This document shows, piece after piece, positions 9,532-12,658 of a stretch of 34,947 nucleotides of DNA. The stretch lies in the NCBI GenBank assembly GCA_017465025.1, contig JAFTXM010000095.1, positions 1-34,947 on the forward strand, given 5' to 3'. Made by a program: the position numbers and the translations under genes. A model generated the notes under the pieces. It ran no database searches, was not told the DNA's origin, and saw nothing but the letters and a program-made list of their open reading frames with translations. The stretch's first letter is position 1; every line of letters begins with the position of its first letter. Source of the stretch: Oscillospiraceae bacterium. GTDB taxonomy: Bacteria; Bacillota; Clostridia; Oscillospirales; Oscillospiraceae.

Positions 9532-10329
9532 TTATTTGCTCAAAAGCACCTGATCGCTTTCAAGACTTGTGCCGCTGTGGTGGGCAAAAAGCTCCATAAG
9601 CTGATGCTTGGTCAGATTTTTCTTCTCTTCGCCGGATACGTCGAAGATTATCCGCCCTTCGTTCATCATGATAAGTCTGTTGCCGTGCTTGATAGCGTCG
9701 GACATATTGTGGGTTATCATCAGGGTGGTCAGATTATTTTCCTTGACAATCTGGTCGGAAATCTCCAGTACCTTTGCGGCGGTGGCGGGGTCGAGAGCGG
9801 CGGTGTGCTCGTCCAGAAGCAGCAGCTTCGGCTTTCTCAGCGAGGCCATCAGCAGCGTCAGCGCCTGTCTCTGTCCGCCGGAGAGCAGACCCACCTTCAC
9901 GGTCATGCGGTCCTAAAGGCCCAGCTCAAGGGTTTTGAGCCTCTCCACGAACATTTCGCGCTCTGCGTTGCTTATGCCCCAGCGAAGCCCGCGTCTGCTG
10001 CCCCGGCGCAATGCCAGCGCAAGGTTTTCCTCCATCCACATATTGGGCGCGGTGCCCATCATGGGATCCTGAAAAACGCGGCCTATGAGTGCGGCTCTCT
10101 TATGCTCGGGCAGGGCGGTGATATCCTGACCGTCGAGGATTATTCTGCCCTCATCCACGGGCCATACACCGGCCACGGCATTGAGCATAGTGGATTTGCC
10201 TGCGCCGTTGCCGCCGATGACAGTGACGAAATCGCCCTCATTGAGCTTGATATCAAGCCCCTGCAAGGCCTTTTTCTCATTAACGGTGCCGGGATTGAAA
10301 GTTTTTCTGACATTGATAAGTTCAAGCAT
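9532..10329 (-). pseudogene. ABC transporter ATPase interrupted by an in-frame TAG
   Basis: The reading frame runs 263 sense codons as an ABC ATPase of the TrpXYZ-like importer family, but codon 139 is TAG (9913-9915). The N-terminal piece carries Walker A (GGNGAGKST, residues 39-47) and the Q-loop. The C-terminal piece carries the LSGGQRQ signature, Walker B (LLLLDEH) and the ITHN H-loop. The frame is kept on both sides. Homologs, as I know the family, have a Glu there (LGLEDR...), so a single GAG to TAG change explains it. An ATG at 9906 sits 7 bases after the stop behind a weak AGGAC, so reinitiation is conceivable. Alternatives are a recent nonsense mutation, a sequencing error or suppression. 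The start at 10329 has GGGAGGG upstream and overlaps the permease stop by 8 bases. Confidence 0.85.
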
Positions 10330-11282: not shown

Positions 11283-12242
11283 TTATTCTCCTATCGCAAC
11301 GTAATCTTCGGGGATCTCAATGCCGAGGGTCTCGCAGTTTGCTGCATTGTACTTCTTGGTGAAGGTGGGAGCGTAGCGGATCTCCATGGCGGAAACATCA
11401 GCGCCGTCAACGAGAATTTCGGCTGCCATCTCGCCGGTAGCGTAACCCAGATCGAAGTAGGAGATGCTCAGGGTGGCCACGCCGCAGCCGCCGCAGATGC
11501 CTTCCTCACCGGCAATGATGGGAACGCCGGCAACCAAAGCTACGTTGTTGATGGCTTCAGTGCAGCTGGCGGCGGTGTTGTCGGTGGGGATGTAGATTAC
11601 ATCACACTCGTCGCAGGCGGTCTGAGTGACGGCGGCAACGTCATTGGAGTCAGCAAAGGTGTAGGTAGACACGGTGTAGCCCAGCTCTTCAAGCATGGGG
11701 GTGATGGTGTCGGCCTGGAACTTGGAGTTGGGTTCACTGGAGCAGTAGAGAATACCCACGTTCTTGGCGTCGGGGAAAATTTCATTGAGCATTGCGGCCT
11801 GACCGTCCAGAGGAGCAAGGTCGGAAGTGCCGGAGATGTTGGTGCCGGTCACGCCGGTCCATTCGTCAATTGCCAGGGCTGAGCCGTAGTCGGTGATGGA
11901 GGTGCCCAGAATGGGTATCTCATTGGTGGCAGAGGCGGCGGCAAGCATGGCGGGAGTGGCGTTTGCGAGGATAAGGTCAACCTCATCGCCTACGAACTGG
12001 CTGCAAATAATGCTGCAGGTGGCGCTGTCACCGGAGGCGTTCTGCTCCTGGAATACAACACTGTCGCCCAGCTTGTCGGTGAGAGCGGTCTTGAAGCCTT
12101 CGGTAGCGGCATCAAGAGCGGGATGCTGCACCAGCTGGCAGATACCGACAACGTACTGGTCGGCGGGGGCGGCAAAAGCGGAAGCACCGCACATCGCAAA
12201 GATGAGCGCCAGAGCGCATATGATACTTGTGATCTTCTTCAT
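11283..12242 (-). CDS. ABC transporter substrate-binding protein (ABC_sub_bind, TrpX-like)
   Basis: A 319-residue exported protein. The ATG at 12242 is chosen because GGAGAG precedes it by 8 bases; the frame is open upstream across the leader. The first 27 residues form a signal peptide ending in SAFA-AP. A lipobox is not convincing, since the only early Cys sits in FAMCGAS. The mature part has the two-lobe fold of the ABC_sub_bind (PF04392) family, which includes the streptococcal tryptophan binding protein TrpX. It heads a permease-ATPase operon, and the upstream attenuator is rich in Tyr and Phe codons. I infer an aromatic amino acid ligand, probably tyrosine or phenylalanine; this is not proven by residues. 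Confidence 0.88.
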   Translation of the reverse strand: MKKITSIICALALIFAMCGASAFAAPADQYVVGICQLVQHPALDAATEGFKTALTDKLGDSVVFQEQNASGDSATCSIICSQFVGDEVDLILANATPAMLAAASATNEIPILGTSITDYGSALAIDEWTGVTGTNISGTSDLAPLDGQAAMLNEIFPDAKNVGILYCSSEPNSKFQADTITPMLEELGYTVSTYTFADSNDVAAVTQTACDECDVIYIPTDNTAASCTEAINNVALVAGVPIIAGEEGICGGCGVATLSISYFDLGYATGEMAAEILVDGADVSAMEIRYAPTFTKKYNAANCETLGIEIPEDYVAIGE

Positions 12243-12284
12243 TTTTGTTCTCTCCTTGATTTTTCTGTAAAATGTTTTGACCAA

Positions 12285-12316
12285 ACAAAAAAGCCGCACA
12301 GCCGGTCTGTGCAGCT
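12285..12316 (-). terminator. Attenuator terminator in the ABC importer leader (segments 3:4)
   Basis: On the minus strand the arm at 12307-12316 pairs with the arm at 12292-12301 (10 positions, one C-A mismatch, 5-base loop) and is followed by six T (12287-12292). It lies between the leader peptide ORF and the substrate-binding gene, so it must be bypassed for operon expression. Confidence 0.85.
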
Positions 12317-12410
12317 CAAGAAAAATAAAAGAACAAATCGCTCTAATTGCAGCACAAACCCTTATTACTCTCTTTGAAAAAGTAATAATAATAGTAATAT
12401 GCAGCTGCAA
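12304..12410 (-). promoter_or_regulatory. Mutually exclusive attenuator segments 1:2 and 2:3
   Basis: Read on the minus strand, TTGCAGC (segment 1, 12404-12410, the Ala codons just before the Tyr run) can pair with GCTGCAA (12347-12353). GGTTTGTGC (segment 2, 12352-12360) can pair with GCACAGACC (segment 3, 12304-12312) over 9 positions with one T-G wobble. Segment 3 is also the 5' arm of the terminator. A ribosome stalled on the Tyr codons would cover segment 1, free segment 2 and allow the antiterminator. Pairings are read by eye, not folded computationally. Confidence 0.7.
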
Positions 12411-12426
12411 AAAAGTGTCTGAACAT
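12343..12426 (-). CDS. Tyr/Phe-rich leader peptide of the ABC importer attenuator
   Basis: A 27-codon ORF on the minus strand whose product begins MFRHFFAAAYYYYYYFF and ends ...GLCCN before TAG. It has a textbook ribosome binding site, AGGAGG (12435-12440), 8 bases before the ATG, directly behind a strong promoter. Six consecutive Tyr codons (12382-12399), with Phe on both sides, are the control-codon pattern of leader peptides such as PheL or HisL. The peptide itself probably has no function; its translation rate reports charged tRNA-Tyr and tRNA-Phe. It is too short for ordinary gene finders. Confidence 0.88.
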   Translation of the reverse strand: MFRHFFAAAYYYYYYFFKESNKGLCCN

Positions 12427-12454
12427 CTTACGTTCCTCCTGCTTGGATGAGCTG

Positions 12455-12483
12455 ACTTTAGCACTTTTAACCAGTGAAGTCAA
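12455..12483 (-). promoter_or_regulatory. Promoter of the attenuated ABC importer operon
   Basis: On the minus strand TTGACT (12478-12483), a 17-base spacer and TAAAGT (12455-12460). The predicted transcript begins about 8 bases upstream of the leader-peptide ribosome binding site. Confidence 0.8.
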
Positions 12484-12658
12484 CAGAAAAAATAAAGTTT
12501 GTCGATTTGCACCATTACACTTTAAATGGACATAGTAAAATTGCTGCGCCTTGAACAAAATGACGACAGAATTCAGGCCTGACGGAGCGGTGAAGAAAAA
12601 ACTCTTTATTTCTTGGTGATATTATGTTAATCTCTTAATCGGATAAACCCATACTTTA

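Follow-up and report, generated by a model that had tools for sequence, protein, structure and literature searches.

The window, that is, the whole stretch of 34,947 nucleotides that was analysed (Oscillospiraceae bacterium GCA_017465025.1, contig JAFTXM010000095.1, positions 1 to 34,947), carries on its minus strand what is very probably a ribosome-mediated transcription attenuator that responds to tyrosine, and probably also to phenylalanine, and controls a tyrosine importer. The source genome, of an uncultured lineage of gut Clostridia, comprises 1.88 Mb in 143 contigs and is 71.7% complete. A promoter, a Shine-Dalgarno site, a Tyr-rich ORF of 27 codons and an intrinsic terminator follow one another in this order from 12483 to 12287, and the ATG of the importer operon lies 49 bases 3' of the terminator arm. 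The elements are listed below with the evidence on which each was placed.

12478..12483, minus strand: -35 hexamer TTGACT; sequence
12455..12460, minus strand: -10 hexamer TAAAGT, preceded by TGC; sequence, common to relatives
12435..12440, minus strand: Shine-Dalgarno AGGAGG for the leader ORF; sequence
12343..12426, minus strand: leader ORF, 27 codons plus stop, MFRHFFAAAYYYYYYFFKESNKGLCCN; ATG at 12426 to TAG at 12343
12400..12410, minus strand: segment 1, part over the Ala codons, TTGCAGCTGCA; partner of segment 2 in the fold, weak covariation
12382..12399, minus strand: control codons, six Tyr in a row between Phe codons; sequence, with Tyr/Phe-rich runs in relatives
12381..12388, minus strand: segment 1, Tyr-codon part; pairs with 12369-12362, covariation
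12362..12369, minus strand: stop-region arm, partner of the Tyr codons; covariation
12347..12360, minus strand: segment 2, GGTTTGTGCTGCAA; sequence and fold
12307..12317, minus strand: segment 3, GAGCTGCACAG; 2:3 and 3:4 covariation
12291..12301, minus strand: segment 4, right terminator arm, CTGTGCGGCTT; 3:4 covariation
12287..12292, minus strand: six-T run of the intrinsic terminator; sequence
11283..12242, minus strand: ABC_sub_bind (PF04392) substrate-binding protein, predicted tyrosine binder (Glu246, Tyr262); family and residues
10322..11278, minus strand: permease BPD_transp_2 (PF02653); family match
9532..10329, minus strand: ATPase ABC_tran with one in-frame stop; family match

The promoter, the Shine-Dalgarno site, the 27-codon ORF, its Tyr run and the terminal T run, all of them reported in the earlier note, were recovered base for base. 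The two promoter hexamers are separated by 17 nt in the window, and TTGAC was found at the same spacing in 60 of 64 leaders of relatives, the exceptions being L009, which lies at the edge of a contig, and the three diverged leaders L147, L151 and L153. Folding of the leader region on the minus strand, which had been proposed as a check, gave -50.7 kcal/mol for 12448-12285 against a shuffled mean of -36.4 (z -3.46), with none of 200 shuffles as stable. Three mutually exclusive pairings had also been described; the 2:3 helix (9 pairs) and the 3:4 helix stood as they were given, but the 1:2 hairpin is longer than the Ala-codon version stated, as it extends over the Tyr codons, whose partner is the sequence around the stop codon (12388-12381 with 12369-12362). 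Relatives usually have their stop codon within 12362..12369, which the ORF of the window passes in another frame.

An inverted repeat, ACTTTAGCAC-N6-GTGCTAAAGT, lies across the -35 and -10 hexamers in many importer promoters of relatives and is decayed in the window (12455-12480). With at most one mismatch it was found in 10 of 41 genus genomes, always at the importer promoter, and it was absent at this threshold from the window's own genome. A repressor site is possible, and covariation does not support it, the arms being matched at 81.9% of positions against 80.6% in shuffles, a level reached by 50 of 1000 shuffles over 37 distinct promoters.

Conservation of the leader ORF was observed across the genus, in which an ortholog of the importer gene was detected at E<=1e-80 in 75 of 101 genomes. 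Of 76 regions that precede the importer gene in the genus, 64 contain a Shine-Dalgarno-led short ORF rich in Tyr and Phe codons (at least four in seven codons); among the reverse strands 3 of the 76 did so, and among 760 dinucleotide shuffles 18. Twelve regions lack such a leader; L006, L124 and L138 have 173, 53 and 0 nt of upstream sequence, respectively, with the 3' part of a leader present at the contig edge in L006, and nine have full upstream sequence and fall below the cut-off (L013, L014, L141, L143, L144, L145, L146, L149 and L157, the last with a Phe-rich ORF of score 3). The segment analysis kept 61 of the 64 leaders, L147, L151 and L153 being excluded as diverged, and the segment 2 motif GTTTGTGCTGC was found with at most three mismatches in 61 of the 64. 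The pattern F-x-FA-x-AY-x-YYYF recurs in many of the ORFs, and Trp occurs in one of 61. Exactly 5 nt lie between the end of the stop and the start of segment 2 in 37 of 61 leaders. In 14 of 61, the window among them, the ORF has a different frame and continues beyond the usual stop and across segment 2; a ribosome terminating at a stop of either type would, as we infer, cover segment 2. These 14 out-of-frame ORFs most often have a tail containing Cys-Cys. The three diverged leaders are Tyr-rich and have a different promoter, diverged RNA arms and their own terminator, which suggests turnover of the RNA with retention of the Tyr codons. Missing conservation of the Tyr run or of the paired arms, the observation that the earlier note had named as speaking against its reading, was looked for and not found.

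The helices were examined in an alignment of 48 of 50 non-redundant leaders, from which L016 and L017 were omitted (their segment 2 differs by three bases); one leader set took 49 of the 50, without L026. Pairing was 90.6% for helix 2:3, with 28 double-change cells against 10.4 in shuffles, 87.0% for helix 3:4, with 43 against 14.9, and 90.5% for the helix that joins the Tyr codons to the stop region, with 42 against 15.5, none of 500 shuffles reaching the observed double-change count in any of the three, and these counts are to be taken as support and not as probabilities because the shuffles ignore relatedness and the Tyr-codon helix was picked after the alignment had been seen. The numbers of pairs with a double change are not above shuffles (3:4 reached by 92 of 500, the Tyr-codon helix by 62 of 500), nor are further pair types (280 and 208 of 500, respectively). 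The Tyr-codon helix is the best supported part of 1:2 across relatives. The Ala-codon helix covaries weakly, with 74.6% pairing against 72.1% in shuffles and 11 double-change cells where shuffles give 6.6, a count that 20 of 500 reach; sliding it by +3 gives 24. A duplex-energy test of 1:2 at -8 kcal/mol did not discriminate, being passed by 47 of 50 real leaders and by 67% of shuffles. The fold from the leader to segment 2 has a mean of -26.2 kcal/mol, against -18.5 for random synonymous versions drawn with the peptide fixed and the base composition unmatched, and in 40 of 50 leaders at most two of 40 versions were as stable, which supports the whole 1:2 hairpin; the effect in the window itself is small (-20.9 against -17.6). 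A further alignment contained 96 of 127 pooled leaders after removal of near copies (L176 and L233 were not pooled), namely 46 importer leaders and 50 others, and in the non-importer leaders alone, those of aroF included, helix 2:3 was paired at 78.9% against 75.1%, with 32 double-change cells against 11.8, both reached by none of 500 shuffles.

The arrangement found here is that of an attenuator: a short ORF clusters codons of the regulated amino acid, the 2:3 and 3:4 helices are mutually exclusive and covary, the 1:2 hairpin includes the control codons (through the Tyr-codon helix, and weakly through the Ala-codon part), and the genes downstream make the amino acid or, as the binding-site residues suggest, would import it. 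With Tyr-tRNA, and probably also Phe-tRNA, charged and plentiful, the translating ribosome would pass the Tyr and Phe codons to the stop and cover segment 2, upon which segments 3 and 4 would form the terminator and the importer would be off. With Tyr-tRNA short, the ribosome would stall on the Tyr run and mask segment 1, and the free segment 2 would pair with segment 3 before segment 4 is made, giving read-through into the importer; RNA without translation would form 1:2 and 3:4 and terminate. Folds with the ribosome as a mask gave, at some stall positions, a 2:3 helix of 9 pairs as long as segment 4 had yet to be made; once it was there, a 3:4 helix of 11 pairs formed. In this crude model without segment 4, the minimum was 2:3 when the A-site held Tyr 10, 11 or 14 or any codon from Phe16 to Ser20, but not when it held Tyr 12, 13 or 15, and 2:3 shrank from Asn21 onward. 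After addition of segment 4, 3:4 prevailed at each of the six Tyr codons, and read-through must therefore be kinetic, with 2:3 forming first, the order on which read-through also rests in textbook attenuators. An importer of tyrosine under ribosome-mediated attenuation, as the earlier note had proposed, is what the conserved ORF, the covarying helices, the leaders before aroF-tyrA and the residue signature described below together point to.

The nearest named orthologs of the importer gene were found in an Oscillospiraceae bacterium (94% identical) and in Candidatus Limivicinus (71%). The ATPase gene of the operon contains an in-frame stop at 9913-9915, which would be a private mutation or an assembly error, because the gene is open in one frame at 82 of 83 loci covering both of its halves and is interrupted only at the locus of the window. 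The designation TrpXYZ-like holds at the level of the protein family but not as TrpX, since the window protein scores 223.5 bits against a cut-off of 390 for the TrpX equivalog NF041285 and, among solved structures, is closest to the tyrosine binder CD0873 of C. difficile (PDB 6HNI, E 2e-47). CD0873 has been shown to bind tyrosine; the hydroxyl of the ligand is held by its Glu263, a position taken by Ala in the Phe and Trp binders, and at its Tyr279 the Trp binder has Gln (PMC6816091). Glu246 and Tyr262 of the window protein occupy the columns of these same two selectivity residues, and the window protein, a PF04392 member with both of them, is predicted to be a CD0873-type tyrosine binder, from which we infer tyrosine transport. 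Both residues are present in 77 of 81 proteins, three others being cut short there and one, a paralog, differing; all 80 loci of the ortholog group in named genomes that were checked have both. The pair marks the ortholog group independently of the leader, because it is fixed with or without one.

The same genome contains a second importer of the family, 42% identical to that of the window (L218:760-1674), whose ATG lies 78 nt behind a T-box (L218:418-682, 102.2 bits) and which has Tyr in place of the tyrosine-specific Glu. Specifiers were read in 21 genus T-boxes as the triplet in GAA-N-NNN at position 82-86. This rule finds a triplet in 17 of the 21, with GTC in 14, of which 13 lie before a valyl-tRNA-synthetase-like protein (one checked), and with single cases of ATG before a MetN ATPase and of AAC before an ORF without a name; at position 82-86 it finds no triplet in four, the pheS T-box included. 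By this calibration the triplet of the paralog's T-box is TTC (UUC, Phe), a specifier that no second Phe case confirms because the rule misses the pheS T-box. Phenylalanine appears to have its own T-box importer in the window's genome, and from the Phe T-box and the missing Glu together, the paralogous importers seem to depend on different devices for sensing phenylalanine and tyrosine. The element of the window itself gave no match to the T-box model (RF00230) at the gathering score, and none was present for 12200-12600 among six matches to E 5; the model works on this genome, where T-boxes were found elsewhere. No Rfam family matches the element.

A covariance model built from the importer leaders matched 87 of the 101 genus genomes searched at E<=0.01. 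A further match away from the importer was found in 54 of 101 at E<=1e-6, and 43 genus genomes have both kinds, the last two numbers being hand counts. In 40 of 40 loci read among these 54, the window's genome included, aroF follows, with tyrA on the same stretch; in the window's genome this second leader is MRFGFAVKYFCYYYFDKE, and behind it are a DAHP synthase and then a prephenate dehydrogenase, as identified by Pfam. Of 400 genomes from the taxonomic family, 134 gave matches at E<=1e-6, and these represent 44 of 106 genera. Among 39 family loci, chosen mostly among the better matches, aroF follows in 31 and the importer in five (L198, L199, L200, L202 and L235), and the remaining three leaders precede genes for a chorismate mutase-prephenate dehydratase (L228), an AMP-binding enzyme resembling a phenylacetate-CoA ligase (L231) and a sodium symporter (L232, with a Tyr-rich leader). 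In the order, a model of the 96 leaders gave matches at E<=1e-5 in 76 genomes out of 394, spread over 48 of 169 genera, and among the best 29 order loci besides the window's genome, a set that overlaps in part with the family loci, aroF follows in 28 and the importer in one. From this distribution of targets, the aroF site looks ancestral and the importer site a recruit, and aroF-tyrA is probably the main and older target of the leaders.

The Tyr run of the window stands between Phe codons on both sides, and Phe codons are common in the leader ORFs (13.8%, against 20.4% Tyr), so that the signal may not be Tyr alone. That the leader instead senses phenylalanine, or both amino acids equally, and that the importer is a general one for aromatic amino acids, is possible and, in our judgement, rather unlikely. 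Phe bias was observed in three importer leaders (L150, L152 and L155) and in the aroF leaders of the order, where Phe exceeds Tyr in 20 of 28. The two leaders, out of 38 in the family, in which Phe outnumbers Tyr most strongly, at 7:1 and 5:1, belong to the phenylacetate-CoA-ligase-like and the chorismate mutase-prephenate dehydratase genes (L231 and L228), one case each. Among the importer leaders of the genus, however, Tyr exceeds Phe in 41 of 61 and Phe exceeds Tyr in nine, and the diverged leaders L147, L151 and L153 keep 7, 6 and 5 Tyr against 0, 1 and 2 Phe. The tyrosine-specific Glu is found even behind Phe-biased leaders, though it is fixed across the ortholog group regardless of the leader, and the apparent presence of a separate Phe T-box importer in the same genome likewise counts against the phenylalanine or general aromatic reading.

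Two other readings concern the leader product. The recurring FA..AY..YYYF pattern could reflect an arrest of the TnaC type, in which an F-x-FA-x-Y nascent peptide stalls the ribosome on a ligand and not on empty A-sites; the residues vary outside the aromatic codons, the FA/AY part doubles as an RNA arm, and the two Tyr codons are used about equally (TAT 134, TAC 124), which makes this reading highly improbable. A conserved, translated-looking ORF with a Shine-Dalgarno site would also be expected of a small functional protein followed by an unrelated constitutive attenuator, but three helices covary, codon choice favours the 1:2 hairpin at constant peptide, and 14 of 61 ORFs have another frame and another C-terminus with the RNA kept, so that such a protein is extremely unlikely.

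T-boxes often do the amino-acid sensing in Firmicutes, and few cases of amino-acid leader peptides have been described there. The trp, his, phe, leu and ilv leaders of Proteobacteria are attenuators with a control-codon ORF, alternative pairings and an intrinsic terminator; the present element is like them in its control-codon ORF, its 1:2, 2:3 and 3:4 alternatives and its intrinsic terminator before the target, and differs in its host, a member of Clostridia (Bacillota), in Tyr as the main control codon and in having a transporter among its targets. Histidine leaders of Bacilli were surveyed in 2010, reportedly by Naville and Gautheret. Their hisS/hisZ leader peptides replace T-boxes (PMC2965389), so that leader peptides stand in for T-boxes in Firmicutes there as here, whereas the codons there are His, the genes hisS paralogs and the hosts Bacilli. 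According to that 2010 survey, none had been shown outside Proteobacteria and Actinobacteria before the histidine leaders, save an atypical one, and its text contains no mention of tyrosine, phenylalanine or aroF (PMC2965389). The leucine-rich attenuator peptide of Staphylococcus aureus ilv-leu (PMC5794164) is likewise an amino-acid leader peptide in a Firmicute, as described there for leucine and branched-chain biosynthesis. The candidate uORFC-13-1 resembles the present leaders as an uORF with a terminator before aroF and a proposed aromatic control codon, and is set apart by its published description, with Phe codon(s), no transporter target, and 24 representatives from Acholeplasma and unassigned environmental sequences only (PMC8632094). 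The aroF leader of Corynebacterium glutamicum, which contains Phe-Tyr-Phe (PMC4046766), is also an aromatic leader peptide before a DAHP synthase gene, but belongs to an Actinobacterium and has, as reported, three aromatic residues and a biosynthetic target; a survey of Actinobacteria reports no conserved RNA structures before phenylalanine and tyrosine operons there (PMC1262725). In Streptococcus suis, trpXYZ encodes a homologous importer in which premature termination is likewise tied to amino-acid shortage, whereas the reported sensor is a T-box with a UGG specifier and the substrate tryptophan (PMC9382623); the word T-box is absent from the main text of the CD0873 paper (PMC6816091). Among titles and abstract openings of open-licence papers, neither a Tyr leader for such an importer nor an aroF attenuator of Oscillospirales was found, and the Tyr/Phe leader family is apparently undescribed so far.

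Judged by these sequence tests, the element fits and would work like a ribosome-mediated attenuator that is unusual in its amino acid, host group and target. It is likely that an order-wide family of Tyr/Phe leader-peptide RNAs forms an aromatic regulon in Clostridia, with a division between tyrosine read by the ribosome and phenylalanine read by a T-box on paralogous importers, and this regulon would comprise aroF-tyrA and the tyrosine importer, with a pheA-like, a phenylacetate-CoA-ligase-like or a sodium-symporter gene added in individual genomes. The leader family occurs across an order of gut bacteria, and its codons let one propose a substrate for a widespread importer family. The window's genome would represent a natural experiment, with two paralogous aromatic importers in one genome, one of them read by the ribosome and the other by a T-box.
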